A DNA stretch of 31,134 bases, taken from positions 1-31,134 of IMG/VR virus record IMGVR_UViG_3300042562_000203. One strand, 5' to 3'. The translations under genes were made by a program, and so were the position numbers. The notes below the pieces were generated by a model that was not told the origin of the DNA, ran no database searches, and saw only the letters and a list, made by a program, of their open reading frames with translations. Of this stretch, positions 12,554 through 26,571 are shown piece by piece. Position 1 is the stretch's first letter, and each line of letters opens with the position of its first letter. This DNA comes from a virus.

Positions 12554-14515
12554 CTATTTTTTTCTTACTATTACTTGAGCCCAATGATGCCTGCATTGTG
12601 GAAAGTTTTGGTCTAAATCACTATTGTGATACCAACCACCTTTATATTTCCACACATCGGTATTGTATTCTTTCATGTCATTGTTAAGACTATCTATTTC
12701 CTCTCTTGAGTATATTCTTTCTTGTCCTAATAACTTTGCACAAAAATCTCTATTCTTACTATCTTTAGGTCCTGCATATTTCCACTTAGTTTCAAACTCT
12801 ATTAAGGTCTCAGGCTCAACAACTTCTTTAATGTCAAAGTTAGGTGCAGTTTGTGAACCGCCCAAAGTACCACCTACTAAGTTTTTTTCAATTAACTTTT
12901 GCAATGCTTTTTCAACATCAAAATCCAAATCTTTTTTAGCTCTGTTAATGTCCAACTTTTTTAAATTCTTATCAATGATATATTTTAAAAGCGCATCTTC
13001 ATCACTTGCAAATTCAAACTTATCTGCACTTAATCCTATTAATGCAAATTTAGACAAAATAATTGAGTCCATGTTAGCATCTAAATTCTTTTTTTTAAAA
13101 GTTTCAGTTGGAGGTGTTGCAACTTCGGGTGCTAATTGTTCGCCTCCTTGTTCAGGTGGTAAGCCTACTAATGCTCTAATCTCATTTGCAGTCATTGACG
13201 CAATAACCTTGTTAGCTACTAATGGACTTAATGAGTTAATAGCCTCAGTAACTTCTGCTGCACTATCAGTTGTTTTCTTAACTACCTTATTCAAACCTAT
13301 ATTAAATTGTCCCTCAATTAAATTTCTCATTTCATCTCTTGTTAAAGATGCCATTAACATTCCATCCGTTATTTCTATACCTAAACCTTTTAATGGTTCA
13401 ATTCGTAAAACGGGACTTAATCCACATTCTTTTAAAACCCAATTTATTTCTTTTTCGTACCTTTGTTGATTAGGTTCAATGTAGTTTAAGTTTAACATTT
13501 GCCACGCTAAATCAATCTCACTTCTACCACCTAACTGACCCTCTGTTTTAATACCAAATAACATTGCGTTCACAACTTCGTGACCTCTTATTATTCTATC
13601 CTGAACATCTTGTTTTAATGACTCAAATTGCTTATCTAAATCAGTCGGCTTAATACTTTCAATCTTAGGTGCTTCTGTATTAAGGTCTGCAAACTGAATC
13701 ATGATTTGTCCTGCATTGTCTGTATTGCAAAACTTGTCGTAAAACTTGCGTTCAATTTCGTCTTGTTCTTGTGGACTTGGCACACCACCCATAAGGGTAA
13801 TCATTGCACCTGCACTAAATCCTGTCTTTACATTTACTAAGTGAAAGTTACTTACTTCAATATCAGTTTCAATATCAACTATTGAGGCATGATATTCGGG
13901 CAAAGGGTAGCCTCTGAACTCAGGTCTATAATCGGGAAAATAAACTAATTGAACTCCATCTTTTTGTTTAGGGTCAAATGGTTTTATTGCCTTTACATCT
14001 TTAGGTAATTGATTGAATTTACTTTTAAAGTTTTTCTTTGTTGATTGGTTTTTAGTCCACTCTTTTGAAACATAATAAATTTGACCACTTACACTCAATC
14101 TTACTTGTTCATAGGGTTGATGAAAAACACTCATTAATTTACCACCCACAAAAAGTAATTTTAAATAATAACCTCCAAATATTTTAGAGTCTATTATTGC
14201 TTTTTTCATTAATTCATCAAAGGAGTCGTTTGGGTTTGGATTAGCTAATAGTTGTCTTAACTCTGCACTCTCAAATCCGTTCTTTATTGTCCACCCTTGC
14301 CCATTAATAAACCTTACCTTACCATTAACAATAGCGTGATGTAAGCCACATCTATTATAAAGATAAGTTAAATAATCAGGGTACTCATTATTCGTGCCAT
14401 TGATAATAAATTGTTCGCCATTGTTTTCAATAAATTCAGGGGTTTTGTGTTCGTACATTGGTACTGAACTAAAGGCGTATTTACGCTCCAAAGACTTTTC
14501 TTGTTGTTGTTCCAT
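12554..14515 (-). CDS. Portal protein with MuF-like C-terminal domain, 653 aa
   Basis: The first 450 residues look like a portal: YLYNRCGLHHAIVNGKVRFI, NPNDSFDELMKKAIID and IFGGYYLKLLF (entry helices and wing), YPLPEYHASIVDIETDIEVS then FHLVNVKTGFSAGAMIT (stem), and DRIIRGHEVVNAMLFGIK with GGRSEIDLAWQMLNLNYIEP. The last 80 residues differ: DFCAKLLGQERIYSREEIDSL, then WKYKGGWYH and PQCRHHWAQVIVRKK, the end motif of SPP1 gp7/MuF head-morphogenesis proteins. So a truncated MuF domain appears fused to the portal. It starts at ATG 14515, overlapping the upstream gene by 35 nt. It lies after, not before, the capsid gene, which is unusual. Confidence 0.78.
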   Translation of the reverse strand: MEQQQEKSLERKYAFSSVPMYEHKTPEFIENNGEQFIINGTNNEYPDYLTYLYNRCGLHHAIVNGKVRFINGQGWTIKNGFESAELRQLLANPNPNDSFDELMKKAIIDSKIFGGYYLKLLFVGGKLMSVFHQPYEQVRLSVSGQIYYVSKEWTKNQSTKKNFKSKFNQLPKDVKAIKPFDPKQKDGVQLVYFPDYRPEFRGYPLPEYHASIVDIETDIEVSNFHLVNVKTGFSAGAMITLMGGVPSPQEQDEIERKFYDKFCNTDNAGQIMIQFADLNTEAPKIESIKPTDLDKQFESLKQDVQDRIIRGHEVVNAMLFGIKTEGQLGGRSEIDLAWQMLNLNYIEPNQQRYEKEINWVLKECGLSPVLRIEPLKGLGIEITDGMLMASLTRDEMRNLIEGQFNIGLNKVVKKTTDSAAEVTEAINSLSPLVANKVIASMTANEIRALVGLPPEQGGEQLAPEVATPPTETFKKKNLDANMDSIILSKFALIGLSADKFEFASDEDALLKYIIDKNLKKLDINRAKKDLDFDVEKALQKLIEKNLVGGTLGGSQTAPNFDIKEVVEPETLIEFETKWKYAGPKDSKNRDFCAKLLGQERIYSREEIDSLNNDMKEYNTDVWKYKGGWYHNSDLDQNFPQCRHHWAQVIVRKK

Positions 14516-14879
14516 TTGTAAAAATTATTCTATCGGTTAAAATTTTATCGTATCTCATTATCCCTGTTTCTACCATTTCATTAGACAACTTATAGTCTAA
14601 ATTAGTAGTTGACACTTGAGCGTAGATGTAGTATTCGTATTCATCTCCTAAACTTAATTTTAGTTGACCTAATAAAGGATTGGGAGTAGTTGTTTGCGTA
14701 GTTATGGTAAACTTGTTATAACGTGTTTTGTAGGTGCTTGTATCCGATTGAATACATACATATTCCACGTTGGTCTGCTTGTTGACAAACCTAAATAAGT
14801 AAGTAGGTGCGTTAATCGTTGTCTTTTCAGTCAACGTTAAGACTACTATGTTGGCGGTATTTTCTTGTAATAATATCAT
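14481..14879 (-). CDS. Small beta-rich protein before the portal gene, 132 aa
   Basis: Unknown family. The sequence is beta-prone (NIVVLTLTEKTTI, TYLFRFVNKQT, YNKFTITTQ, QLKLSLGDEYEYYIYAQVST), as in an Ig-like or small virion beta-sandwich domain, ending IIFTNGTTTRKVFGA. It has no signal or membrane segment. It is the first gene after the strong terminator at 14885-14915 and its end overlaps the portal start by 35 nt, so it is translated with the portal. A neck or capsid accessory role is possible. Confidence 0.55.
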   Translation of the reverse strand: MILLQENTANIVVLTLTEKTTINAPTYLFRFVNKQTNVEYVCIQSDTSTYKTRYNKFTITTQTTTPNPLLGQLKLSLGDEYEYYIYAQVSTTNLDYKLSNEMVETGIMRYDKILTDRIIFTNGTTTRKVFGA

Positions 14880-14884
14880 ATTTT

Positions 14885-14915
14885 AAAAAAAGGGGTGTCA
14901 ATCTCTCAACACCCC
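14885..14915 (-). terminator. Intrinsic terminator between the capsid block and the portal block
   Basis: Minus strand GGGGTGT pairs with ACACCCC around a 10-nt loop (TGAGAGATTG) and runs directly into TTTTTTT. It lies between the tail-tube-like gene (stop 14940) and the ATG at 14879. It should let most transcripts from the capsid genes stop, lowering portal and connector expression relative to capsid protein. I found no promoter after it, so downstream genes depend on read-through. Confidence 0.85.
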
Positions 14916-14939
14916 CTCCCCATTTATGAAAACAACACT

Positions 14940-15449
14940 TTATGCTATCAATGCAGCAATAGCTGATGACTCAATTTTAAGGACATCAAGTTTTTCCTCA
15001 CCTGTCAATGTGATTACATAGCCACTCATGTCGGCTGCTGCAGTTCCTGTGGCATATCCACCCTCAGCTATCTGTAATCCTCTTGAAGTTCCAAATAACC
15101 AATACTCTCCATTCTCATCTAAAACAATAGCAGCAACTGTCTGAGCAGCTAAAGCCATCATTTCGTTACGTTTGGTTATATCGTATTTCGGTAAGTTCAT
15201 TGTTACGTTCTGAGCAAAGAAACGACCACCTACTGCTCTATCCCCACTTGGTACAGATGTTGCTGAACCTCCACCCATTGGTACTTCATAGGCGTAAAAC
15301 TTTTTACCACCCACCATAGTGATGGTTGCAATGCCTGATGAAACCGCAGGTGTTCCGATACCGCTTAACTCTGCCAAATAGATTTTGGATATACCGCCCT
15401 TTGATGAGCGGCAATCCAAACTAAATCCTGTGCTTAATATACAACTCAT
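14940..15449 (-). CDS. Probable major tail (tail tube) protein, 169 aa
   Basis: It starts MSCILSTGFSLDCRSSKGGI, then LAELSG and TITMVGGKKFYAYEVPMGGG. The C-terminal half has VAAIVLDENGEYWLFGTSRG, then ATGTAAADMSGYVITLTGEE, a pattern I associate with tail-tube-type beta-barrel proteins of Bacteroidetes phages: a long hairpin, a Gly turn, and an LTGEE end strand. It directly follows the capsid gene (18-nt gap) and precedes a strong terminator, as expected for a highly made virion protein. A capsid decoration protein is the main alternative. Confidence 0.55.
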   Translation of the reverse strand: MSCILSTGFSLDCRSSKGGISKIYLAELSGIGTPAVSSGIATITMVGGKKFYAYEVPMGGGSATSVPSGDRAVGGRFFAQNVTMNLPKYDITKRNEMMALAAQTVAAIVLDENGEYWLFGTSRGLQIAEGGYATGTAAADMSGYVITLTGEEKLDVLKIESSAIAALIA

Positions 15450-15468
15450 AAGTTATAAAATTAAAGGG

Positions 15469-16425
15469 TTAAACTAATTTAAAGGTAACTAACTCATCAC
15501 CGAAACGTATTTGAGTTCCTAATTTAGCAATCAATCTAGCTATAATAGTATTGTCTTTACGCTCGTAGAATACATCTAAAGACTCATACTCATTCGGTGC
15601 ATCTGTACCAATAACATAGTTTGATTTTCTTGTTAAGTGAATACGATTTGTACCTGTCAAGCCATGTAAAGCAGTTACTCTTAATCCAAATGATGGTATA
15701 ATGATTGAACCTGTCGCATAAGGACTAGCCTCCTCAGTTGCACCATAGTGGAAATTGTTTAGAGTGAAGTACGCTTGTAACAATTTTCTGAAAGTATCCC
15801 AACCACAAACGAACTCCAAATCAGTTTGACCTGCTAAAGCGTTAGGGATTAAGTTAACCATACCATTGAAAATTCCAATTACGTTACCTGTGGTAATACC
15901 TGTACCTGTTGAGATTGAAGTAGGGTTACCATTGATTGGACTTGCAGCGTCTATGATTTGATTAAAACCAATTACACCACTTGCACCACCTGTTACACCT
16001 TGCCACAATAACACCTCAACTGCTGCTGCTACCTTTGCAGAATAATACTCAGCGAATGCTGCCTCAATCGGCATATTCTCATAAGTAGAACCTTGTGGTA
16101 AATATTCTTGAGTGTAGAAAGTTTCTAAATCACTTGGACAGAAAGTCTTTTGGTCGTAGAACGGATATACTTGAATTTCTTTTTTGTCGAAAATCACATC
16201 ACCTGATGAAGTTAATCCACAACCCTCTTTTGCTCTTAGAGTAACATCTACATCCATGTAGTTTATTTGCTCTTTGAACTTGATGCCTGATTGTACTTGT
16301 CCGCTTAAGTAAGCAGAAGTTGCTCCACTAAATACTGCTTTAGTAAAAAGCTCTAAGTTTGTTTGGTCAACGTAAGCAGTTAAGTTATCGGTATCAAAAC
16401 CGAATTTTAATTTTAAATTTGCCAT
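15469..16425 (-). CDS. Major capsid protein, 318 aa
   Basis: The size, composition and place after the protease/scaffold gene fit an HK97-fold capsid protein. Typical parts are an N-terminal helix region (NLTAYVDQTNLELFTKAVF), a beta-rich E-loop-like stretch, the spine-helix-like IEAAFAEYYSAKVAAAVEVLLW, the A-domain GWDTFRKLLQAYF with SFGLRVTALHGLTGTNRI, and a C-terminal strand RFGDELVTFKLV. There is no long delta domain, as expected when the scaffold is encoded with the protease. It starts at ATG 16425, 8 nt after the protease gene, behind an A-rich leader. It should be made in large amounts from the element at 17581. Confidence 0.8.
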   Translation of the reverse strand: MANLKLKFGFDTDNLTAYVDQTNLELFTKAVFSGATSAYLSGQVQSGIKFKEQINYMDVDVTLRAKEGCGLTSSGDVIFDKKEIQVYPFYDQKTFCPSDLETFYTQEYLPQGSTYENMPIEAAFAEYYSAKVAAAVEVLLWQGVTGGASGVIGFNQIIDAASPINGNPTSISTGTGITTGNVIGIFNGMVNLIPNALAGQTDLEFVCGWDTFRKLLQAYFTLNNFHYGATEEASPYATGSIIIPSFGLRVTALHGLTGTNRIHLTRKSNYVIGTDAPNEYESLDVFYERKDNTIIARLIAKLGTQIRFGDELVTFKLV

Positions 16426-16433
16426 TTTGTTTA

Positions 16434-17006
16434 TTATTTTATTTTTGTTTGTTCGTATTTGAATTGAGCAGCTAACCCATCAATGTATGATTTAGGTTTA
16501 GATTGAGTGTTGAATGAATGTTGAGTAGGTTCAGCAACTAAAGTTTTAACCAATTCCAAAACATCTTCAGTTAATTTGTTAGACTCTTTAATTTGTGCGC
16601 TAAATTTCTCTTCTACTTTGTTGATTGAACTTTCAAAGTTAGATTTCAACTCTGCATTTTCAGTTTCCAATTTAGTAACCATTTCAGTTAGTTTTTGAAT
16701 AGCCATTTCTTGCTCAGTCATTGGTTTAGCAACCGCTACAACTTGACCACCCTCAATGCTAATTACTGTGCCATCTTCAAAGGTATGTTCGCCATCAGGT
16801 GCAGCCGTTCCATCTTCCAATAGTACGATTGTTCCCTCAGCAAGTTCGCCCTCGTACATTACTTTAGTTCCATCGGTCAACATAGCCTCAGCCATTTTAA
16901 CCTCTTCATCTTTTTTCTCTTCAGGTTTTACATCTTCTGAAAATAGAGATTTTGCTTTTGCTACTAACTCGTCGAGTTTTGATGTAGCTACTTTTTTATC
17001 TGTCAT
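16434..17006 (-). CDS. Possible nested scaffold from an internal start (190 aa)
   Basis: Met190 of the protease/scaffold protein, ATG 17006, begins MTDKKVATSKLDELVAKAKS exactly at the boundary between the protease and scaffold parts. It is preceded by an A-rich stretch (AATAATAAAT), the kind that precedes other starts in this genome. The product would be a free scaffold of acidic coiled-coil type with a basic tail, parallel to lambda Nu3 inside gene C. This is an inference from domain layout and sequence before the ATG. Confidence 0.4.
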   Translation of the reverse strand: MTDKKVATSKLDELVAKAKSLFSEDVKPEEKKDEEVKMAEAMLTDGTKVMYEGELAEGTIVLLEDGTAAPDGEHTFEDGTVISIEGGQVVAVAKPMTEQEMAIQKLTEMVTKLETENAELKSNFESSINKVEEKFSAQIKESNKLTEDVLELVKTLVAEPTQHSFNTQSKPKSYIDGLAAQFKYEQTKIK

Positions 17007-17573
17007 ATTTATTATTGTTTGAAATTCTTTTAAAAATGTTTGCTCTGAAAATTCCTCTTTAGTCGCAAAGTTGCCCTCAATACTAAAGCCTTTAACGATG
17101 CCTGTCTTTACATAATCGTTCCACACTTGCTCATTGTTTACTTTAACAAATGCGAATAAGCTACCATTTGGCAACTCTTCAAATCCTATCGGAGTATTAA
17201 CCCCTAACTCAGTATTGATTATAAAGAATTGTTGAATGTGCATGTCTGCCAATTCTTTCTTTGCATCGTGTTCAAAATTAAAGGCAGTTAGTTTATTGTT
17301 CAGTACCATCCTGTCCGCTAATTGCTCAATAGTTTCACTACTAAATTTAACAAAGAACTCTTTACCATTCATGTTACGATACATTGGGAAGTCAGCAACC
17401 ATTAAAGCACCTGCTAATATTCTTTTATCTTCGTTATGTGTTTTGAACTCGTAAGACTTATGCTCTTTAAAAGCCATCCAATTACGTTGAATTGCAGGGT
17501 TTTCTACCAATGCAGTGGCATCCACGCCCTGCTCTAAATCTTCTAAGGTTAATTCGATTATTGGTAAGTCCAT
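16434..17573 (-). CDS. Prohead protease (XkdF-like) fused to scaffold, 379 aa
   Basis: Residues 1-185 resemble the XkdF serine-protease family of prohead proteases: LEDLEQGVDATALVENPAI, RILAGALMVADFPMYR, His102 in FNFEHDAK, and Ser164 in VKGFSIEGNF as likely catalytic residues. Residues 190-379 are acidic and helical: DELVAKAKSLFSEDVKPEE, a short beta module rich in Gly/Asp (DGTKVMYEGELAEGTIV), a long coiled coil (LTEMVTKLETENAELKSNF), and a basic tail (YIDGLAAQFKYEQTKIK) suited to bind the capsid protein. The protein thus combines protease and scaffold, like lambda gpC/Nu3. The start ATG 17573 is preceded by the conserved 28-bp element at 17581-17608. Confidence 0.78.
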   Translation of the reverse strand: MDLPIIELTLEDLEQGVDATALVENPAIQRNWMAFKEHKSYEFKTHNEDKRILAGALMVADFPMYRNMNGKEFFVKFSSETIEQLADRMVLNNKLTAFNFEHDAKKELADMHIQQFFIINTELGVNTPIGFEELPNGSLFAFVKVNNEQVWNDYVKTGIVKGFSIEGNFATKEEFSEQTFLKEFQTIINMTDKKVATSKLDELVAKAKSLFSEDVKPEEKKDEEVKMAEAMLTDGTKVMYEGELAEGTIVLLEDGTAAPDGEHTFEDGTVISIEGGQVVAVAKPMTEQEMAIQKLTEMVTKLETENAELKSNFESSINKVEEKFSAQIKESNKLTEDVLELVKTLVAEPTQHSFNTQSKPKSYIDGLAAQFKYEQTKIK

Positions 17574-17580
17574 CTACTAC

Positions 17581-17608
17581 ATAAAACAATCTTAATTTTT
17601 TATTATTG
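17581..17608 (-). promoter_or_regulatory. Conserved 28-bp element, copy 3, before protease/capsid genes
   Basis: Plus strand ATAAAACAA-TC-TTAA-N7-TTATTG; on the minus strand CAATAA-N7-TTAA-N2-TTGTTTTAT. All 19 fixed positions match the copies at 23713 and 25380. Seven nt separate it from the ATG at 17573. It probably acts as a phage-specific promoter or activator site for the capsid block. Confidence 0.6.
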
Positions 17609-17634
17609 TTTTTTAGATTATTGTACTATATTTG
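17606..17634 (+). promoter_or_regulatory. Possible plus-strand promoter (TTG-N18-TATATTTG)
   Basis: TATATTTG at 17627-17634 matches TAnnTTTG exactly, with TTG at 17606-17608 as a partial -33. It points away from the gene orientation and would start transcription near 17640, ending at the plus-strand terminator at 17666-17693. Weak evidence in AT-rich DNA, but the pairing with a terminator in the right place is notable. Confidence 0.35.
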
Positions 17635-17665
17635 TAATGTTTTTAGCGATTGTTTTTCATAGTAG

Positions 17666-17693
17666 AAGTGCCTCTCATTTGGGAGGCATTTTT
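17666..17693 (+). terminator. Plus-strand intrinsic terminator between tape measure and protease genes
   Basis: An 11-pair stem (AAGTGCCTCTC with GGGAGGCATTT, two GU pairs) closes on an ATTT tetraloop and runs into T's on the plus strand (17689-17693). On the minus strand the same hairpin is followed by ACTTCTAC, not by a U-run. It therefore terminates plus-strand transcripts, although all genes here are on the minus strand. In the sense direction it may only stabilise the tape-measure mRNA 3' end. Confidence 0.6.
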
Positions 17694-19563
17694 ATTGTAT
17701 TGTTGCCTGAGTAAATATTCCGTCTACTTTTCTAGTCACTGACCTAATATCAGTTTCTGTTACAAAAACTTTCGTAGCAGGTTGCTGAGTTGGTTCGTTA
17801 GTAGTTTGACTTCCTCTTATGTTGGGAGGTTGTACAGAACCACCGCCACCACCACCACCTGCTGAACCGCCTCCACCACTTGAACCTTTAGCACCGCCTA
17901 TTGTAGTTGCTGCAACTTGTGCTATCCCTAAACCTGCTCTTATGTTTGCTAATGTTTTAAATGTTGTTTTAATAGCAGTACCACCATCGGGCAATAATGA
18001 CCATGCAGGATTAGCATTGTAGGCTGAAACCTCTCTTTGACGATTGATTAATATTCCTGCTATTGCTGCACCTTTCTCAACTGCTAAGGCTGCTATTGCA
18101 ACTGCTTTATTTTTACCTGCTAATTGACCTAATAAGTCTGCGGTCTGATTAGCTATACCTAACTTAGCATTTTGAATAGATTGTGTTGCTGCTATTTCTG
18201 CATCTGCTAAATCTTTTATTCTTTCTTTTTCTTTTTCGTCTTTTTCTTTTTGGTCTTCTTTAGCTTTTTCGTCTTTCTCTTTTTTCTTTTCGGCTGCCTC
18301 CAATCTAAACTTTTCATTCAATGCGGCTGCATCCTTTTCAAAGTTTTCTCTAATTAGTTTCTGAGCATCTAAATCTCCCTTTAATAGTTCTTGTTTCTTT
18401 TCAGCCTCTTTTTGCAACTCCATCAATTCTAATTCAAATTGAGTTTTGCCTCTTAATCTTTTTGCCTCTTCTTCGTCTGCAACTATCTTTTTTAATTCCT
18501 CTTGATGTTTCTTTTCCTCTTCTGCCTTTTTATCGTTTGCCTCTTTTTTCTTTTTAGCAGCATCCTCACTTGCCTTTTTATCCTTTTCTGCACCATCTTT
18601 TATTCTTGTTGTTTCCTCAGCATCTAATACCCTTATGGCTTGTACCATTTCATTGTAGGCTTTTATTTCATCTTGAGTTGCACCCTTTTTAAACGCTGCT
18701 ATTTTTAAAGTTTCTAAGTCATTAAATAATAGTTTTCTTTTAGCTAAGTATAACTCCCTTGCACTTGCACCATTAGCCTCCATCAACTCTATTTCATCTT
18801 TCATTTGTTGACTTCTAACTGCCCTTTGTTTTGCTGCGGTTTCCTCTTGTCTTTCAGCCTCAGAACTTATGCCTACAAAGTCCATGACTGCATTTTTAAC
18901 CTTAGTAAATAGTTCGCCTAAATGTGACAATCCCGGTATGAAATCTAATACTACCTTTTTAATCTTACCAAAGTTAGCTATTAATAAACCAACTGCTGCA
19001 ACTATTAAACCGATACCTAAGGCTGCCCCTGCAATCCTCATTAACTTTAAAGCACCCGTACTTGTACCTACTGCTGCTGCATATCTTGTTTGAACAAAGG
19101 TTAATACTTTAGTCTTGGCAGTATTTAAAGCCACCATAGCAGCACTATCACTTTGAAGTGTAGCGTTTACTTGTTGCAATCCATTTAATAAAGCGGTTGC
19201 CCCTTGTAACTTAACTAAGGTTTTCTGTAAATCTTCATTCTCAGAACCAAACAAAGCCATTGCACCTTGAGCCGCTGCAAATCCACCTACTATGCCCGTT
19301 GCCATATCTCCAAAACCTTTTAACACTACATCTGCACCATCAGTCGCTAAAGCCTTAACACGATTATTTACATCGATAATAGTATCGGATAGTTTACCTG
19401 CTCTTGCGGTTGCCTCATCAAATGCCTTACCCGTTAGACTTCCACTTGCTAATTCATTCTTTAACTCCCTTAATTCCTGTTTGAGTGTTTTTGTTTTTTC
19501 GGCTGCTTTGCCGACTGAGTCGCCTCCCTTTATATCTACCGTTAATTGTACATTTTTTGCCAT
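17692..19563 (-). CDS. Tail tape measure protein, 623 aa
   Basis: The N-terminus is a helical coil (KAAEKTKTLKQELRELKNEL, then ARAGKLSDTIIDVNNRVKAL). A hydrophobic segment at 173-198 (LMRIAGAALGIGLIVAAVGL) is the membrane-like region usual in tape measure proteins. The middle, about 240-490, is a very charged coiled coil full of Lys and Glu. A second small hydrophobic region follows (GKNKAVAIAALAVEKGAAIA) and the end is Gly-rich (GGGGSAGGGGGGGSV). At roughly 1.5 angstrom per residue it predicts a tail of about 90-95 nm. It starts at ATG 19563, overlapping the upstream tail gene by one base (TAATG). It is encoded after the distal tail genes, the reverse of the usual order. Confidence 0.85.
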   Translation of the reverse strand: MAKNVQLTVDIKGGDSVGKAAEKTKTLKQELRELKNELASGSLTGKAFDEATARAGKLSDTIIDVNNRVKALATDGADVVLKGFGDMATGIVGGFAAAQGAMALFGSENEDLQKTLVKLQGATALLNGLQQVNATLQSDSAAMVALNTAKTKVLTFVQTRYAAAVGTSTGALKLMRIAGAALGIGLIVAAVGLLIANFGKIKKVVLDFIPGLSHLGELFTKVKNAVMDFVGISSEAERQEETAAKQRAVRSQQMKDEIELMEANGASARELYLAKRKLLFNDLETLKIAAFKKGATQDEIKAYNEMVQAIRVLDAEETTRIKDGAEKDKKASEDAAKKKKEANDKKAEEEKKHQEELKKIVADEEEAKRLRGKTQFELELMELQKEAEKKQELLKGDLDAQKLIRENFEKDAAALNEKFRLEAAEKKKEKDEKAKEDQKEKDEKEKERIKDLADAEIAATQSIQNAKLGIANQTADLLGQLAGKNKAVAIAALAVEKGAAIAGILINRQREVSAYNANPAWSLLPDGGTAIKTTFKTLANIRAGLGIAQVAATTIGGAKGSSGGGGSAGGGGGGGSVQPPNIRGSQTTNEPTQQPATKVFVTETDIRSVTRKVDGIFTQATIQ

Positions 19564-22181
19564 TATCTTATTTTAATTATTACTCCACCATCCATTAAAT
19601 ATTCATGTGTATTATTGCCTGAAAACTCTTCAAATAAAGTACCATCAAAATTATTAATTATTACTTTGTGTGATGTATTAACATGTTTAACAATATACAA
19701 TTTGCCCGTATTCAAATCAGGGTCAGGCATTGTTATAGTTAAGTTTCCTGCGGTTGTATCAGCCAATATATAAATTGGACTACCCTCGCCACCTGTTAAA
19801 ATTAAGTTAGTTGTAGTAGTGATGTATCTATATTGTAACATTACAAGGTTATCCTTGTCAGGTGGAATATAAGTCACACCGCCTCCCGTTAATACATTTG
19901 ACCTTAACACTAAATCCCCTCCTTTTACTCTATCATTAAGGTTGCCCGTTTCATGATACAAATCAGGATTAGTTCCCCATGCACCTGAACCTCTTCCTCC
20001 CCTTGTTGTTCCGTTTGATTTTTCAACCGCATCAATAGGGGTTAATTTTAAAAAAGTACACTTAGTGGTTTCTTTGCCATTGTAGTCACTCATTTCATAT
20101 AGTCGGTAATGGTTGCCATCTATTTCATAAATCGGTCTTAAACTTAAATTGTGAACATCAAACGGGGTTAAGTTCACATAGCACTCTAACATCTTACTAT
20201 TTTTATTATTAACTTCTTCTAATCCTCTTTTGTGATACTTATTGTATAATCCCTGATTACTTACTACTACTTGTCCGTTTTCGTTTGTGTAAAATACTTC
20301 CTGAGGGGTTGCAAAACATAAATCATTATTAGGGTCAGTTGTATTATCAAATGTAGAAAGGCTTGGATAAGTTAATCGGGTTGTTCTATTTGTCCCTACA
20401 CCATCATCTCCAAAGTCCCAAGCATCTCCTGTTAATAATCCATTGTAGTACATTATCTTTGGCTTACTCTTATCGTTTCTAAAACCTTTGTTTACATCGT
20501 CTTTTAAGTCCGTTGCTAAAGGTCTATATTGTCCTTGTTTGGGGTCTGAGTTCTTTGCTACTACCATAAGACTAAAAGGTATCTTTACTTCCTTAGTACC
20601 TTGTAAGAAATCGTTTTGAACATCTACATTAACATCTCCAAATACTCTACCATTTCTTTGATTGTAAAGGTTGTTATAATAGTCTTTGTCTAAATCATAA
20701 GTAAAGTTAAAAAACTTTTCTTTTGCCCCTCCAATAGGCTTTACAGTAAACTCCTTATTGTAATCTATCTTATAAGTCCAATCTATTATTTCAGAAGTAT
20801 AGTAATTATCTCTCGGCTCGATTAAGTATGTAAGGTAGCCTCCTGAGTTCGGGTCGTTAGCTTTAAAGTAGTAAGGTTCAATATACATATTAAACATCTT
20901 AACTAATCCCATTACGAAATCCTTTTGAGTCATTTCAGAACTTAGCAAACTATTGACATTGATAGTATCTCCTAATCCATAATCCTTAGTTAAAAATATA
21001 TCAAATCTTGAATTATCTATTGACACCTCAGTACCACCTGATTGGTTTTTCACTACCCATTTATAATTAGTAGCACTTGTTAATAGTTGCCCTATCTTTT
21101 CATTTTGTACGTTTATTTGTATTGAGGCATTATTTGCTAAACTACTTGTTAATACGTGTTGATGTGTTATAACTCCTGCAATAACATTGCTTGTAGTTAC
21201 TAACAATACACTAAATGAAAACACGCTACCACTTGGCAAAGTACCACCACTTACATTCTTTAAAACAGGATTTAAGTTTAATACTATATCATAGTCTGCA
21301 GTAATATCTACATTTAAAATACCCGTTGTATCGTCATATTGACTTAATCCATCTTGTTCTACTACATCAAATATAATATCATTGTTAGTGTATAAATTAA
21401 ATGTACTACCATTTGTATTAAAAGGGAATAACCCACTTGTTGTAATTGAATAAGCACAAAGACTATTTGATATTTCAGTATCAGTTCTTACCATGCCATT
21501 ACTATTACCTTTATAAACTAACTTTTTAAAAGCATCTGTATTTATAAACTCTGAGTAATATCTAAAATCAGCCTCTTCCCAAATCTTATCCCATAAAGTT
21601 TTAACGAAAAACCAAAGGTCATAATCCGATACTTTCCAATAATCTGCTATTTGAATAGTGTTTACTATTACATCTGTTTGCCTCCCGTTCTTAACTTGAG
21701 GGTATACATACCCACTTGATGCAGTCCAACTATCTATTATTTCTGCTTTAGTATAATCGTGGTCAAACTCTGACAAATCCAAATCACTTAACTTCCTACC
21801 CTCAATCGTTTTAAAGAAGTCGGCATTTTCTCCGTAGATAATTAACTCATATTCGATTAACTCTTTAGTCTTATTGATATTTACTAACTGAGCGTAACCT
21901 GTTATAACGGGTAATGAGTCTTCATAGTATGTTGCCTTTACTTTTTTAGTAGGATTGTAGAAAGGGTCAAACTGAACATTTGAACTAATAAACATTGAGG
22001 CATCAAAGTAACCACTAAACACTTGATTGTTTACTCTACTACTCGGCAGGATAATTGACTTGGTAAAATGCGACTTCCTTTGGTTAGGGTCTTGAACATC
22101 GTAAACGGATTTCGTAACGGGTACTAAATCCTCATCCATCAACTCTATCTGATACTCGCCTATTTCTAATATTCTATCCAT
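19563..22181 (-). CDS. Large tail protein (distal tail/baseplate type), 872 aa
   Basis: The N-terminus (MDRILEIGEYQIELMDEDLV, then FTKSIILPSSRVNN and SGYFDASMFISSN) resembles distal tail or hub proteins of Bacteroidetes phages, which begin with a beta-sandwich docking domain. The middle is mixed alpha/beta with many Tyr and Asp (LIIYGENADFFKTIEGRKL, DYWKVSDYDLWFFVKTLWD). Near residues 720-760 is a Gly-rich hinge (GTTRGGRGSGAWGTNPD), and the C-terminal 120 residues are beta-rich (TNLILTGGEGSPIYILAD), possibly a projecting domain. It overlaps the tape measure gene (TAATG) and the 27-aa ORF. A baseplate/hub role is inferred from size and neighbours; no lysozyme or peptidase motif is visible. Confidence 0.6.
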   Translation of the reverse strand: MDRILEIGEYQIELMDEDLVPVTKSVYDVQDPNQRKSHFTKSIILPSSRVNNQVFSGYFDASMFISSNVQFDPFYNPTKKVKATYYEDSLPVITGYAQLVNINKTKELIEYELIIYGENADFFKTIEGRKLSDLDLSEFDHDYTKAEIIDSWTASSGYVYPQVKNGRQTDVIVNTIQIADYWKVSDYDLWFFVKTLWDKIWEEADFRYYSEFINTDAFKKLVYKGNSNGMVRTDTEISNSLCAYSITTSGLFPFNTNGSTFNLYTNNDIIFDVVEQDGLSQYDDTTGILNVDITADYDIVLNLNPVLKNVSGGTLPSGSVFSFSVLLVTTSNVIAGVITHQHVLTSSLANNASIQINVQNEKIGQLLTSATNYKWVVKNQSGGTEVSIDNSRFDIFLTKDYGLGDTINVNSLLSSEMTQKDFVMGLVKMFNMYIEPYYFKANDPNSGGYLTYLIEPRDNYYTSEIIDWTYKIDYNKEFTVKPIGGAKEKFFNFTYDLDKDYYNNLYNQRNGRVFGDVNVDVQNDFLQGTKEVKIPFSLMVVAKNSDPKQGQYRPLATDLKDDVNKGFRNDKSKPKIMYYNGLLTGDAWDFGDDGVGTNRTTRLTYPSLSTFDNTTDPNNDLCFATPQEVFYTNENGQVVVSNQGLYNKYHKRGLEEVNNKNSKMLECYVNLTPFDVHNLSLRPIYEIDGNHYRLYEMSDYNGKETTKCTFLKLTPIDAVEKSNGTTRGGRGSGAWGTNPDLYHETGNLNDRVKGGDLVLRSNVLTGGGVTYIPPDKDNLVMLQYRYITTTTNLILTGGEGSPIYILADTTAGNLTITMPDPDLNTGKLYIVKHVNTSHKVIINNFDGTLFEEFSGNNTHEYLMDGGVIIKIR

Positions 22182-22264
22182 TAAATTTTTTCATTTTCCC
22201 CTTTCCACCATTTATAGATGTCGACTAATATATGAATGGTAATTATAATAAATAATGTAATCAT
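22181..22264 (-). CDS. 27-aa membrane micropeptide ending in KWWKGEN
   Basis: ATG 22264 overlaps the 70-aa gene's stop by one base (TAATG), and its own TAA overlaps the ATG of the 872-aa gene in the same way, so it exactly fills an 82-nt gap. The peptide has one hydrophobic helix (MITLFIIITIHILV) and the end YKWWKGENEKI. The preceding 70-aa protein starts with MITILITIYLL and ends YKWWTGDNN, so the two share both ends and look like a duplicated pair with a deleted centre. Function unknown. Confidence 0.55.
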   Translation of the reverse strand: MITLFIIITIHILVDIYKWWKGENEKI

Positions 22265-22476
22265 TAGTTATTATCTCCTGTCCACCATTTGTAAAATTTA
22301 TTTTGACTTAAATTAATATTATCATATAAAACTTGTATTGTTAATATAATATTTATTAAAGGCACATACCAACTACTATGCGAATAGTATGATTTTCTTT
22401 TTTTAATCCTTTTAATCATTACCCATCTTGTGAGTAATACGCTTAATAAATAAATTGTAATTAATATTGTAATCAT
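22264..22476 (-). CDS. Small membrane protein, 70 aa, ending in KWWTGDNN
   Basis: It has an N-terminal membrane helix (MITILITIYLLSVLLTRWVM), a very basic turn (IKRIKKRKSYYSHSSWYV), a second hydrophobic segment (PLINIILTIQVLYD) and a polar tail ending FYKWWTGDNN. The topology is probably two membrane passes. Small membrane proteins at this point, between two distal tail genes, are not part of the usual siphovirus layout. Possible roles are inner-membrane docking for DNA entry or superinfection exclusion; both are speculation. It starts at ATG 22476, 2 nt after the upstream gene. Confidence 0.6.
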   Translation of the reverse strand: MITILITIYLLSVLLTRWVMIKRIKKRKSYYSHSSWYVPLINIILTIQVLYDNINLSQNKFYKWWTGDNN

Positions 22477-22478
22477 TT

Positions 22479-23708
22479 TTAAAATCTTTGTCTATATGAT
22501 GCGTTTGTAAATTGTACGTCTATTTCCTCAATAAACATTCCATCTTTACGGGTGTCCTTATTAGTGTACGAACTTGTGCTTATTTTAATCGGGTAAAGTT
22601 TGCCATTCTGAAAGATAAAAGCTAAAGGACTTTTAACCATTTCTGCAATCCATTGACTTTCAATCGTGCTAATATAATCAGTTCTTAATTTGATTGAACT
22701 CTCAATCCTTGTGTTGAAAGCGGTATCTCCCGTTTCGTAACTTGAACGGACAAAACTATTACCTACTACTGCACCACCTTGTTTAAGATAAAAGTCTTTA
22801 GTTACTTGATAACTCTTATCGTTGGCAAAGTTGAAGTTGTAAGCATCAAATCTACCTACTTTGTTTAACCAAAAAATTCTAACGGGTGTGTACTTGTAAC
22901 AATCTCTATCAACTTTAAAAGTCAATAGTTCGCTTGTAGGTGTGTTTACGGTATCTAATATCTGTATAGTGTACTTATCAACTGCATCGGTGTAAATCGG
23001 TTGTGTACCACTTGTTAAGGTTAAGTTGTTAATACTACCCGTTCCTACATTGATAGATAAGAATAACTCATCTGTATTAGTTGTTCCTGTAAAGGTATTG
23101 TTTTTAACATAAGTGCCAATTAAAGAACCATTAAATCCATAAGTCTTTATTTGAATTTTAGCGGCTGCAGTTGAACCTGAGTCTTGCATAAAACCTAACT
23201 CGAATAAATCATTAGTCCCAATTCTTATGTCAGCACCACGCAACCCCGTACAAAAGTATTTATTTGCAAAAGCATCTATAACATAGTCACGAATATAATC
23301 AGTTTTAAAAGTATCTTCATATTCAAAGGCGGTGTTGACTGCTATTAAGGTGTTACTATTTACGGGCGAACCACTTGCAACATTCGTATTAGTTGTTCCA
23401 CTTAATTCAGCAAACTGAATGTAAAACTCTTTAAAAACATTAGCTGCTTTGTAAATGCCTGTTGTATTATTTACTATGCCCGATATATCATAGCTTACTT
23501 GGTTTTGAATAGTTCTCTGAGCATCAAAGTGCGCCTTATCTCCATAGATTGATTTCGGTTTAACGTACTGAGCTATTGCCTGACCTGCTACTATTGGTTT
23601 AATCTGATAACTAAATATTGGTTGCGTGTTATTCGTATCAACTAAAAAGTCAATGTGATTAAAAGCTGATACTAAACCGCTCGGTTGTTGATTGATTGTA
23701 ATTGCCAC
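22479..23708 (-). CDS. Minor tail protein, 409 aa
   Basis: A beta-rich protein starting MAITINQQPSGLVSAFNHID, with repeated Thr/Asn-rich strands (KIQIKTYGFNGSLIGTYVKN) and the segment CYKYTPVRIFWLNKVGRFDA then YNFNF, which I associate with tail proteins in Bacteroidetes phages. The C-terminal part (YTNKDTRKDGMFIEEIDVQF then TNASYRQRF) is typical of a beta-sandwich ending. No catalytic motif is seen. It starts at ATG 23708, 4 nt after copy 2 of the 28-bp conserved element, so it is the first gene of a separately controlled tail unit. A distal tail or baseplate role is likely. Confidence 0.6.
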   Translation of the reverse strand: MAITINQQPSGLVSAFNHIDFLVDTNNTQPIFSYQIKPIVAGQAIAQYVKPKSIYGDKAHFDAQRTIQNQVSYDISGIVNNTTGIYKAANVFKEFYIQFAELSGTTNTNVASGSPVNSNTLIAVNTAFEYEDTFKTDYIRDYVIDAFANKYFCTGLRGADIRIGTNDLFELGFMQDSGSTAAAKIQIKTYGFNGSLIGTYVKNNTFTGTTNTDELFLSINVGTGSINNLTLTSGTQPIYTDAVDKYTIQILDTVNTPTSELLTFKVDRDCYKYTPVRIFWLNKVGRFDAYNFNFANDKSYQVTKDFYLKQGGAVVGNSFVRSSYETGDTAFNTRIESSIKLRTDYISTIESQWIAEMVKSPLAFIFQNGKLYPIKISTSSYTNKDTRKDGMFIEEIDVQFTNASYRQRF

Positions 23709-23712
23709 ATCT

Positions 23713-23740
23713 ATAAAACAAAGTTAATAATGTTTTATTG
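23713..23740 (-). promoter_or_regulatory. Conserved 28-bp element, copy 2, before the tail gene at 23708
   Basis: Plus strand ATAAAACAA-AG-TTAA-N7-TTATTG. All fixed positions match copies at 17581 and 25380. It includes a TAACTTTG (-7-like) match but no -33 TTTG. Four nt separate it from the ATG. It overlaps the last 6 nt of the DUF7448-like gene. Confidence 0.6.
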
Positions 23741-24136
23741 CTCATAAATAGCTACAACCCAAAATCCACCATAATATCCATTGTGTTCATTGTGATTTGA
23801 TATTGTAAATATCCCATCAGATGTTTTAACATCTAAAAATTGGACTTCGTGTTCGCCATATTTATCTTCAATATTAGGGGCGTCTTTTAATTCAAAATCA
23901 ATAAGAGTTGAACCTACAAAATCAGATAAATCGTCATCAGTTCTCATATATCTATCTTCACAACATGACTGACCATCATCATATACTCTTAATTTTGTAT
24001 CATCAGTAAAATTAAATACCAACTCATTTTCATCTATACTTACTTTTTTAATCACTTTACCAAGTGATAATTTTATAGCGTTCAACGTTCTTTCGTTACC
24101 GCCAAGCGATTGTATCATAACTCCGAATCCTTGCAT
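23735..24136 (-). CDS. DUF7448-like protein, probable moron, 133 aa
   Basis: The sequence has DDGQSCCEDRYMRTDDDLSD (a Cys-Cys pair), then FVGSTLIDFEL, HEVQFLDVKTSDGIFTISN and HNEHNGYYGGFWV. This ordered set is what I know as the DUF7448 family in bacteria and phages, whose function is not established. It does not look like a virion protein, yet lies among tail genes, and has its own promoter in the 49-nt gap upstream (24149-24179). That is the pattern of a moron gene, expressible from a prophage or early in infection. The start may be ATG 24136 or Met7 at 24118; the latter has GGAG before it and a longer leader. The conserved His/Asn and Cys residues could bind metal, which is inference. Confidence 0.65.
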   Translation of the reverse strand: MQGFGVMIQSLGGNERTLNAIKLSLGKVIKKVSIDENELVFNFTDDTKLRVYDDGQSCCEDRYMRTDDDLSDFVGSTLIDFELKDAPNIEDKYGEHEVQFLDVKTSDGIFTISNHNEHNGYYGGFWVVAIYEQ

Positions 24137-24148
24137 AATATTTTTTTA

Positions 24149-24179
24149 CAAATATAACTATTTATTTTATATAAACAAA
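24149..24179 (-). promoter_or_regulatory. Promoter before the DUF7448-like gene (TTTG-N19-TATATTTG)
   Basis: The -33 TTTG (24179-24176) and -7 TATATTTG (24156-24149) match the Bacteroidetes consensus perfectly with 19-bp spacing. The predicted start is near 24143, a few nt before the ATG at 24136. It is placed in the gap after the neck/tail gene, so the DUF7448-like gene can be transcribed on its own. Confidence 0.7.
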
Positions 24180-24185
24180 TTAAAA

Positions 24186-24707
24186 TTACTCAATAGTTAA
24201 GGTCAAATTTATGTCCTCTCCTAAAGCCTCCTCAAGTCTTGCAGCTAAATCGTTAAAGGCTGCCTCATTAAAGGTTGGTTTCCAAAATGGTTTCTGATTA
24301 ACCCCTTTTTGTTTGACTGCATAAGCCATTCTAATAGCTGCCTTTTCAATAGTGTCCTTTTTAGGTTTAGGGAATGCATTATTATTTGGGTATCTTGGTA
24401 TGTAGTCCTTTAAGTTCTTAATCATATCCCTACTTGGAAATGGTGTTTTAAAACTAAACACTCCTGAGTTCTTAACTTTATTCTTTAAACCCCTTACACC
24501 CTCATCAAGATAAATGTAATAGTCATCTGCAGTAAAACCTATCCCGATATTTAATCCCTCTACCTTTAATTCAGTTGTAGTTATTGATTGACCTAATAAT
24601 GGTTTGACTGCAAATTGACTATCTAAGGTTTCAACGGCTTTCTTTTCTCTTTCGTCTGCCCATTGTTTTAATACTTCACTTATTGTTGCGGTTATTTCTG
24701 CACTCAT
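24186..24707 (-). CDS. Neck/tail-completion type protein, 173 aa
   Basis: The protein has an N-terminal helix (MSAEITATISEVLKQWADER), then TADDYYIYLDEGVRGL, KNSGVFSFKTPFPSRDMI and a helical stretch AAIRMAYAVKQKGVNQKPFW. This Y-x-DEG-x-G then F-P-x-R then G-x-x-x-x-P-F-x arrangement is what HK97-gp10-like neck/tail-joining proteins show (the region around a Gly-rich loop and a C-terminal RPF-like turn). It follows the chaperone gene with an ATGA overlap (24704-24707), evidence that the frameshifted chaperone frame is actually translated to its stop. Role inferred, not certain. Confidence 0.55.
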   Translation of the reverse strand: MSAEITATISEVLKQWADEREKKAVETLDSQFAVKPLLGQSITTTELKVEGLNIGIGFTADDYYIYLDEGVRGLKNKVKNSGVFSFKTPFPSRDMIKNLKDYIPRYPNNNAFPKPKKDTIEKAAIRMAYAVKQKGVNQKPFWKPTFNEAAFNDLAARLEEALGEDINLTLTIE

Positions 24708-25374
24708 TTTATATCCGTTTTAAATATGTCAACATCTTTTAAATACGCCATGTGATTAAGAAATTCAAAGATAGGTGTCTTAAATATTTCATTCCTTTTT
24801 TCAAACCCTACCATTTTAATAATTACATCGTACCAACCCCACTTTAAGCTAAACCAAGTACTAACTCCCCCTCCTGAAAATAGCTTGGCATATCGTGATG
24901 AAATTTCAGCATAACAGCGCAAAAAAAAACTGCTATCGGATATGCAACCTCAATACTTAAATCGTTTTGAAATTCATTAGCTCTATCCATTATATCTCTT
25001 TCATCGGTGCATAAGGTTGCTAATATCAAATGTACATTCTCAATTATCTTATCAGGGTCTTGTGTTAAAGTTCCCATGCTTACCCATTGCTCAACATTCC
25101 AATGATGTACTTGCTGAGTAACTTTATAAACCTTACCATTCAATTCAAACTCTTTAACCCACTCATTGTCTTTCATCTCAGCATCGATTAAGAATTGATA
25201 CTTAGCTAACCTTTTATCAAAGTCTTTAACTAACCATTGACTTGATAAGGTCTTAGGTACACCCTCAAATATGTCGAGTATTGCCATGCCTACCTCGTAT
25301 GCGTTACCATCAAAGTGTTTAAATGCCGATTGTAGTTTTTGAAATTGTAGTATTGTTACGTCTTTAAATGTCAT
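24704..25374 (-). CDS. Tail assembly chaperone, -1 frameshifted long form (223 aa)
   Basis: The short frame (25374 to 24844) and a second frame ending at 24704 overlap with no ATG in the second frame near the overlap; the second ORF can only begin at a TTG right after the T-run. A run of nine T's (24929-24921, minus strand) within GTT-TTT-TTT-TGC is a slippery site. A -1 slip gives residues 1-151 of the short form plus 72 new residues (LRCYAEISSRYAKLFSGGG onward). This is the G/GT arrangement of lambda and most siphoviruses, in which the long form chaperones the tape measure protein. The second frame's TGA overlaps the next ATG (ATGA), supporting its translation. Efficiency cannot be read from sequence. 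Confidence 0.7.
24844..25374 (-). CDS. Tail assembly chaperone, short form (176 aa)
   Basis: A helical, acidic protein starting MTFKDVTILQFQKLQSAFKH, with ILDIFEGVPKTLSSQWLVKD, a beta hairpin FELNGKVYKVTQQVHHWNV and ENVHLILATLCTDE. The 0-frame end is VLGLA at 24844. It is the gpG-like product of a frameshift pair and, together with the long form, should bind the tape measure protein during tail assembly. Its ATG (25374) is 5 nt after copy 1 of the 28-bp element, making it the first gene of the tail block. In the usual order the tape measure gene comes next, but here it is 5 kb away. Confidence 0.65.
   Translation of the reverse strand: MTFKDVTILQFQKLQSAFKHFDGNAYEVGMAILDIFEGVPKTLSSQWLVKDFDKRLAKYQFLIDAEMKDNEWVKEFELNGKVYKVTQQVHHWNVEQWVSMGTLTQDPDKIIENVHLILATLCTDERDIMDRANEFQNDLSIEVAYPIAVFFCAVMLKFHHDMPSYFQEGELVLGLA
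24921..24930 (-). other. Slippery site for -1 frameshifting (G followed by nine T)
   Basis: Minus strand GTTTTTTTTT in the 0-frame reads GTT-TTT-TTT-TGC. Moving back one base after TTT-TTT leaves both codon pairings intact, and the next codon becomes TTG in the frame that continues to 24704. Confidence 0.7.
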
Positions 25375-25379
25375 CTATT

Positions 25380-25407
25380 ATAAAACAAATTTAATTATTC
25401 TTTATTG
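25380..25407 (-). promoter_or_regulatory. Conserved 28-bp element, copy 1, before the tail chaperone gene
   Basis: Plus strand ATAAAACAA-AT-TTAA-N7-TTATTG, with all 19 fixed positions matching the other two copies. It fills the gap between the terL stop (25408) and the chaperone ATG (25374) almost exactly. It includes TAAATTTG, a -7-like sequence. Confidence 0.6.
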
Positions 25408-26571
25408 TTACCTTAAATGATACTTACCATAGTTAGGACTTACTATCACATGACTAAGGATATATCTAATCGCATCAACTCCATGATTAAGGAAATCAAT
25501 AGGCTCATTCAATGCCACTCCGTTCCTATCAGTTTTCCAAACATAACCCCTAAACTCTTTGATTAAGTTAGTTGACCGCTTAGTAATATGTATTCGTTCA
25601 AGTGCTTGTATCTTTTGTATTCCATTTATTATTGAGTCCTTACCCTTTACGCATGGTGTTGCGTTTATTCCGTATGACCTTAAATCTGCTATTGATTTAG
25701 GTTCGGCTGAGTCACATACCACTAAACCACCATAAGGCTTTAAAATGTCTGCAATAGCTTTATTGCTTAATTCTTTTTGATAGGCTATTTCATCAAGTAT
25801 AAACTCATTGTTCCATTTATAAACCATTACTATTGCAGTAGGGTCATTACTATAACCAAAGTCTAATCCAATACCTATGTACTTAGCCTCTTGAGGAACA
25901 TTATCTATTTGATGCCAATTAGTGAATATAGTGCCTTGTACTTGTCCTAACTGACCTAATCCATACACTTGATACCAATTACGCCAATAGTCCGAAGTAT
26001 CTCCTTTTACTTTCGCTTTCTCAATCTCTTTAATAATAGCTTGGTCTAATGCCTCATTGTCCTGATAGGTTATAATAATAAAGTCCGTATCTACTTCGCC
26101 TTTCAATTCAGTGTGCGCCCAAAATTCAGAACTTGGGTTATAATCTAACCATATCTCTTTATTAGTTCTTATGCTTAATTGGTGGTAAGTTTCAAACTGA
26201 ATATTGTTGCACTCATTGATGTAAAGTATATCACGCCTCGCACCTCGTATCTTTGTTTCTTGGTCTGCACTAAAGAACTCAATGTAACTACCATTTGCAA
26301 AGGTGTAAGTTAGTAATGTCTTATTCCAATGAGCCTCATTAAATCTATTAGTCCATACCATCAACTTTAAAAAGTCTTTCATTGCACCCCTACGCAAGTG
26401 AGGGATTGTTTCACTAACTACACTTATCTCTAACTTATCTTTTTTTGTTGCCCTATCAATTAGTATTGCAAGTATTCCGTATGTCTTTCCTGCACTACTT
26501 GAACCCTGCACTATCTTAGTACGGCTCTTTAATCGTCTTAACTTCTTTATTGCTGAGGTATGCTTAAACAC
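25408..26571 (-). CDS. terL: Terminase large subunit
   Basis: The 387 residues hold both activities. The ATPase has Walker A GSSSAGKT (23-30), Walker B ILYINE (115-120, Glu120) and coupling motif WLDYNPSS (141-148). The nuclease has IGLDFGYSNDPTAI (Asp237), GLVVCDSAEPKS and a final acid in NHGVDAIRYIL near the C-terminus, the RNase H-like set of Terminase_3/PBSX-type enzymes. It packages DNA into the prohead through the portal. Asn in place of Asp before Glu120 is common in this family. The start is GTG 26571, overlapping the terS stop by one base (TAGTG). Normally the portal would follow; here it is 11 kb downstream. Confidence 0.93.
   Translation of the reverse strand: MFKHTSAIKKLRRLKSRTKIVQGSSSAGKTYGILAILIDRATKKDKLEISVVSETIPHLRRGAMKDFLKLMVWTNRFNEAHWNKTLLTYTFANGSYIEFFSADQETKIRGARRDILYINECNNIQFETYHQLSIRTNKEIWLDYNPSSEFWAHTELKGEVDTDFIIITYQDNEALDQAIIKEIEKAKVKGDTSDYWRNWYQVYGLGQLGQVQGTIFTNWHQIDNVPQEAKYIGIGLDFGYSNDPTAIVMVYKWNNEFILDEIAYQKELSNKAIADILKPYGGLVVCDSAEPKSIADLRSYGINATPCVKGKDSIINGIQKIQALERIHITKRSTNLIKEFRGYVWKTDRNGVALNEPIDFLNHGVDAIRYILSHVIVSPNYGKYHLR

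Follow-up and report, generated by a model that had tools for sequence, protein, structure and literature searches.

A -1 recoding site at a nine-T run in a family of tail-chaperone-like phage genes, possibly open to both ribosome and RNA polymerase

The gene directly downstream of the large terminase gene in the viral record IMGVR_UViG_3300042562_000203 has, as judged from sequence and selection, one start and two products, the second of which is reached by a -1 shift at a run of nine Ts (T9) into a frame without a start of its own. The two overlapping frames and the run are conserved among relatives, and the run was seen to differ among lineages in length and register. The recoding itself is almost certainly real. 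Exactly nine Ts in most lineages suggests that slippage of RNA polymerase contributes to the shift. Therefore, the reading we favour, with about even confidence, is a site that may be open to both the ribosome and RNA polymerase, its main rival being the ribosome alone. The window, that is, the whole stretch of DNA analysed here, has 31134 bases and 34% G+C, and its relevant features are as follows.

25408..26571, minus strand: terminase large subunit (PHROG and Pfam matches), directly upstream of ORF1
25374..24844, minus strand: ORF1, zero frame, 176-aa short product (ORF list and AF2 model)
24929-24921, minus strand: T9 slip run, the in-register T_TTT_TTT part of GTT TTT TTT T
24922..24704, minus strand: -1 frame extension, 72 codons and TGA (purifying selection, AF2)
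24844..24920, minus strand: double-read stretch, the ORF1 tail and the start of the extension (low pS in both used frames)
24186..24707, minus strand: next gene, with no assigned function; its ATG at 24707 is overlapped by the extension TGA
23735-24136: DUF7448 gene (Pfam, E 1.4e-19), located between the terminase and tape measure genes
17692..19563, minus strand: tape measure protein (phrog_339, E 1.3e-6), about 5.1 kb downstream of ORF1

The minus-strand order is a small terminase-like gene, the large terminase gene, ORF1, the gene at 24186-24707, the DUF7448 gene, a 409-aa gene, a small gene, an 872-aa gene, and the tape measure gene, followed by possible protease and capsid genes and then the portal gene; the labels small terminase, protease, and capsid were given by position only. 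In the reading direction, the tape measure gene precedes the portal gene within 12554-26571, which is an unusual order.

At the site, the ORF1 codons are GCA GTT TTT TTT TGC. As the initial annotation had noticed, the second frame is open after the nine-T run in GTT TTT TTT T (24930-24921; TGC ends at 24919), and it stays open to the TGA at 24706-24704, which overlaps the ATG of the next gene. The annotation was also right that this frame has no proper start: its earliest listed start codon is a TTG (24922-24920) at the run end. The fused product after a -1 shift has 223 aa, and residues 1-151 are common to the short and long forms. T9 is the only homopolymer of at least nine bases in this A/T-rich window, where the next longest runs have eight. 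The site holds in-register T_TTT_TTT, which has the X_XXY_YYZ form of a -1 ribosomal frameshift site, and it also holds an A/T run of at least nine, the register-independent form of a transcriptional slippage site. In-register T_TTT_TTT was found in two other ORFs of the window as well, at 8906-8900 (T7) and 10181-10174 (T8).

A scan of viral contigs with ORF1 yielded 14 loci, of which 13 cover the site and the 14th ends before it. Conservation of the T run in relatives had been proposed as a check, and T9 was kept at the same place in all 13 loci covering the site, each with an extension ending at the same point. We measured selection in 13 rows (the window and 12 loci; L014 and L015 were excluded as incomplete). 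Upstream of the site, the zero frame showed a pN/pS of 0.056 (pS 0.41). Past the ORF1 stop, the pN/pS was 0.006 in the -1 frame (pS 0.44, pN 0.0027) and 12 in the zero frame. In the double-read stretch, pS was 0.12-0.13 in both used frames, with pN/pS of 0.43 and 0.35. Strong purifying selection thus acts on the -1 frame past that stop, which makes it very probable that the short and the long product are both made. Together with the 202 shifted domain pairs described below, the kept T9 and the purifying selection strongly support the earlier proposal of -1 recoding and a 223-aa long form.

We regard it as very unlikely that the site is not recoded at all and instead reflects a misassembly, gene decay, or a pair of separate genes. 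Long homopolymers are indeed error-prone, and single in-frame versions exist (L293 and the genes after the terminase in Flavobacterium prophages). However, T9 recurs in the 13 close loci and in many separate assemblies, including two cultured phages; the used frame is under purifying selection on either side of the site; and the second frame offers no start codon before the TTG at the run end.

Some relatives of the large terminase carry the same gene directly 3′ of the terminase gene, with 21-51% identity to the fused window protein and again T9, and other large-terminase relatives have something else at that position. The family set was widened by profile scans and a terminase scan of genomes. 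Among 294 loci and the window, in which some rows repeat contigs, 202 pairs of N and C domains lay on different frames, all of them shifted by -1. Exactly T9 was present in 180 of these pairs (73 in register 2, 70 in register 1, and 37 in register 0) and T6C in 22, and T7, T8, or T10 in none. The remainder comprised 2 pairs in one frame, 5 loci with the N part only, 11 with the C part only, and the rest without a match. Near-copies were dropped before lineages were counted (L001, L299, and L301 are repeats of loci already counted). Of the rows in this set, 118 were distinct, in 19 lineages at 50% identity, 18 of these lineages having T9. Overall, there were 156 distinct frameshifted junctions (window included) in 29 lineages. 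Exactly T9 was found in 121 of the 156 junctions, and 25 of the 29 lineages had T9 only (14 in register 1, 10 in register 2, and 1 in register 0; 4 lineages were others). T_TTT_TTT or T_TTT_TTC stood in register in 153 of the 156 junctions, and the T6C clade kept T_TTT_TTC in 8 of its 11 distinct junctions. The exceptions, L107, L110, and L127 (L291 is the same contig as L107), read GTT TTT TCT TTG and kept the -1 extension; this sub-clade has neither T9 nor an in-register heptamer.

Several other loci differed from this pattern or came from unexpected sources. A T9 relative, L138, lies on a contig binned as Sulfurovum (Campylobacterota) and has a terminase 54% identical to that of the window; the binning may reflect a wrong bin or a wider host range. 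In the viral contig L293, the N and C domains (E 1e-23 and 1e-12, respectively) are fused in one frame, and the longest T run of the fused ORF is at most five; a search of viral contigs for relatives of L293 returned its own contig only. Uninterrupted ORFs that match the C domain and show no trace of a frameshift follow the large terminase gene in Flavobacterium prophages and related ones, in a prophage of Hymenobacter, and in Elizabethkingia phage TCUEAP1 (L140, L142, L145, L147, L148, L152, L154, L158-L160, L203, and L062). A pattern scan of genome contigs with one family alignment gave 50 pattern matches, none of which was confirmed. A further alignment, in which the N and C domains were intermixed, was left out of the analysis.

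We built two trees, both with weak support for the deep branches and with flagged long branches. The 29-row tree was computed after removal of the residues that the run encodes; in it, the T6C clade nests with a T9 lineage (support 100/98), and the well-supported branches alone require at least three changes for register 1 and at least two for register 2. In the best 49-row tree, T9 versus other lengths takes 5 changes and the register of the T9 rows takes 8.

The constancy of T9 was then examined in samples of bacterial genomes. Matches were obtained in 7 of 395 genomes of the phylum sample and in 49 of 301 genomes of a sample of Sphingobacteriaceae, a family that includes the Mucilaginibacter genome with L177. 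Run lengths in these two samples were read at the best-matching loci only (30 loci of the longer Sphingobacteriaceae match list). The Sphingobacteriaceae prophage loci examined had T7, T8, T9, and T10. The T7 sites were all in register 2 (18/18), where seven Ts suffice for the heptamer, and the T8 sites were in registers 2 or 1 (4/4), where eight suffice; therefore, each still holds an in-register T_TTT_TTT, as do all runs read in this family. One locus of this sample, L302, has a single frame. In the Flavobacteriaceae sample, 2 of 397 genomes matched, both with T9, and among 12 genomes of another order, the known match and one new match were found, the new one with T9. The proposition that the run is always T9, and hence points to RNA polymerase, was true for the viral contigs and was broken by the T7, T8, and T10 sites of Sphingobacteriaceae, so the weight given to RNA polymerase was reduced. 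These sites and the T6C clade show that nine Ts are not required.

The heptamer T_TTT_TTT needs 7, 8, and 9 Ts in registers 2, 1, and 0, respectively, and the in-register ribosomal heptamer is the common denominator of the sites. Since T_TTT_TTT or T_TTT_TTC is present in 153 of 156 junctions, ribosomal slippage could explain all but one sub-clade. On the other hand, because the heptamer needs only 7, 8, or 9 Ts, the constancy of nine in three registers pointed to RNA polymerase, and either a further cause or a bias at the protein level is needed to account for so many runs of exactly nine. With the heptamer present, a run of exactly nine Ts has a chance of 0.11-0.19 per lineage, as calculated for 18 lineages. 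These figures assume free flanks and independent lineages, both doubtful; they are too strong, since the long form mostly has L or F behind FF, which favours extra Ts via the protein, and since the lineages share ancestry. The flanking residues change with the register, for example from A-V-F-F-L to G-F-F-F-C.

Ribosomal -1 frameshifting alone, as in lambda G/GT, with the nine Ts kept by protein sequence and shared descent, is a serious candidate that we place appreciably short of an even chance. It agrees with the near-universal in-register heptamer, with T7 and T8 occurring only where the heptamer is still held, and with the T6C clade, which mostly keeps T_TTT_TTC and sits beside a T9 lineage. 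It does not readily account for T9 alone in 25 of 29 lineages despite 8 register changes among the T9 rows, and no stimulator structure stands out downstream: at 14 sites of 80 bases, RNA folding gave z of -1.1 to 1.2 in an analysis of structures other than pseudoknots. Structures of this kind are frequent at -1 ribosomal frameshift sites but not needed. Two genes of an HK97-like tail chaperone cluster showed frameshifting of 6-7% (PMC3711429), so that genes of this type may manage with a modest shift and no nine-T run.

The opposite extreme, in which the T9 lineages owe the long form to RNA polymerase slippage alone and the heptamer is incidental, draws on the fact that any T9 holds a heptamer in every register and that the length of nine is constant while register and flanking residues change. 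We consider it improbable, as the T7, T8, and T6C relatives must shift in another way and keep the in-register heptamer except at 3 distinct junctions. For a contribution of RNA polymerase alongside the ribosome, as in the favoured reading, speak published observations: bacterial RNA polymerase is described as slipping efficiently at nine A or T (PMC5009743), and in a large part of 108 bacterial genomes A/T runs are selected against from nine on (PMC1088944). We tentatively propose, at a little under even confidence, that in most of these phages it is RNA polymerase slippage on the nine-T run, and not just the ribosome, that determines the short/long ratio of the tail chaperone, and that the family has switched levels (from T9 to T7 or T6C) with the same two proteins.

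The designation of the gene as a tail chaperone is plausible, not proven, and we refer to it as tail-chaperone-like by its position in the tail module and by weak family and fold matches. The two parts in the window had no Pfam match, and their PHROG matches were weak and of unknown function. Phage_TAC_7 (PF10109) matched 2 of 10 relatives, with a best E of 8.2e-4 and 19.8 bits against a curated cut-off of 25; a PHROG annotated as tail protein also matched 2 of 10, and the best PHROG of the relatives was phrog_38404, of unknown function (2/10, E 1.2e-5). The AF2 model of ORF1 had a mean pLDDT of 82.8, with residues 162-176 under 50, and that of the extension part had a pLDDT of 83.1. Compared with viral models, the ORF1 model gave 33 matches at E ≤0.001, all unnamed or uncharacterised, and the two matches named as tail assembly chaperones had E 0.15 and 0.70; the C-part model gave no match under E 0.001 (best 7.5e-3). 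A Foldseek search of the PDB gave no match under E 0.001. In the fold comparison, the HK97 tail assembly chaperone 2ob9_A (Z 3.2, rmsd 3.5 over 60 residues) was fourth of 22 weak PDB rows and tied with unrelated chains. PDB sequence searches gave no match with the first family alignment and, with the second, two chance matches (E about 0.5) to the same unrelated protein. Gp10 of Flavobacterium phage 6H has a similar fold (E 1.3e-3), but it lacks T9 and no slip site was seen in the overlap.

Two cultured phages carry the arrangement. In Nonlabens phage P12024S, gp38 lies right after the large terminase gene, with T9 in register 1 and the extension present, and P12024L has the same T9 and extension. 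Both were reached only through the fold search, in which one of the 33 viral-model matches led to P12024S; in tblastn searches of the phage collection with gene-family queries, five queries had no match and a sixth gave one 37-bit match in a Vibrio phage, which we attribute to chance. In both phages, the annotation makes the end of the extension a small gene of its own that starts at an internal ATG (23663-23830 in L297 and 3528-3695 in L298). The gene does not stand directly before the tape measure gene, as is usual for tail chaperones, and the distance of about 5 kb had been called odd. In TCUEAP1, about 4.9 kb likewise separate the tape measure gene from the single-frame gene that follows the large terminase gene and has a weak C-domain match. 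With this parallel, the location is less odd than it had appeared.

For the amounts of the two forms, the level of slippage, and the chaperone role, we infer the following. Most readings would end at 176 aa and give the short form, and a fraction would go on in the -1 frame at T9 to give a 223-aa protein that carries an additional helical domain. At the window site, slippage may use the in-register U_UUU_UUU, with two Phe-tRNAs each moving back one base. The run would be kept at exactly nine because RNA polymerase slips there as well and adds one U, and part of the long form would then come from U10 mRNA. The pair would act like G and GT, the short form being the more abundant and the scarcer long form having its role during assembly of the tail tube on the tape measure protein.

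These results add a large family of recoded genes, located beside the terminase gene where this could be seen, in phages of Bacteroidota and in phages without an assigned host. The family is a natural experiment on what a slip site needs, because run length, codon register, and protein sequence vary apart. As P12024S and P12024L are cultured, have a recorded host, and carry the site, the choice between ribosome and RNA polymerase is directly testable. If RNA polymerase does set the ratio, this would be a tail chaperone made by transcriptional slippage, with many of the hosts in Bacteroidota. Among the papers listed by the literature searches, a set with few subscription papers, we found no report of this site and none of a tail chaperone made by transcriptional slippage.

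E/E′ of phage P2 is a tail assembly chaperone frameshift. As in lambda G/GT, HK97, and P2 E/E′, the gene described here has one start, short and long products, a -1 shift near the end of the first frame, and a place in the tail module, and the weak Phage_TAC_7 matches of relatives and the weak 2ob9 fold match may point the same way. The lambda G/GT frameshift is treated in PMC5009743. Unlike lambda G/GT, this gene follows the terminase gene about 5 kb from the tape measure gene, its slip site is a nine-T run in any register, and its family matches fall below cut-off. Transcriptional slippage in Shigella mxiE uses T9. In Thermus, dnaX has a run of nine (PMC1088944). The nine-base A/T run here resembles both of these; in contrast to them, it always also offers a ribosomal heptamer. 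Homologous dnaX genes, in work by Larsen in 2000, reportedly use either transcriptional slippage or ribosomal frameshifting. The T9 and T7/T6C lineages inside one family are similar to this; unlike dnaX, the present gene is a phage gene, and we infer the level of slippage in every lineage.
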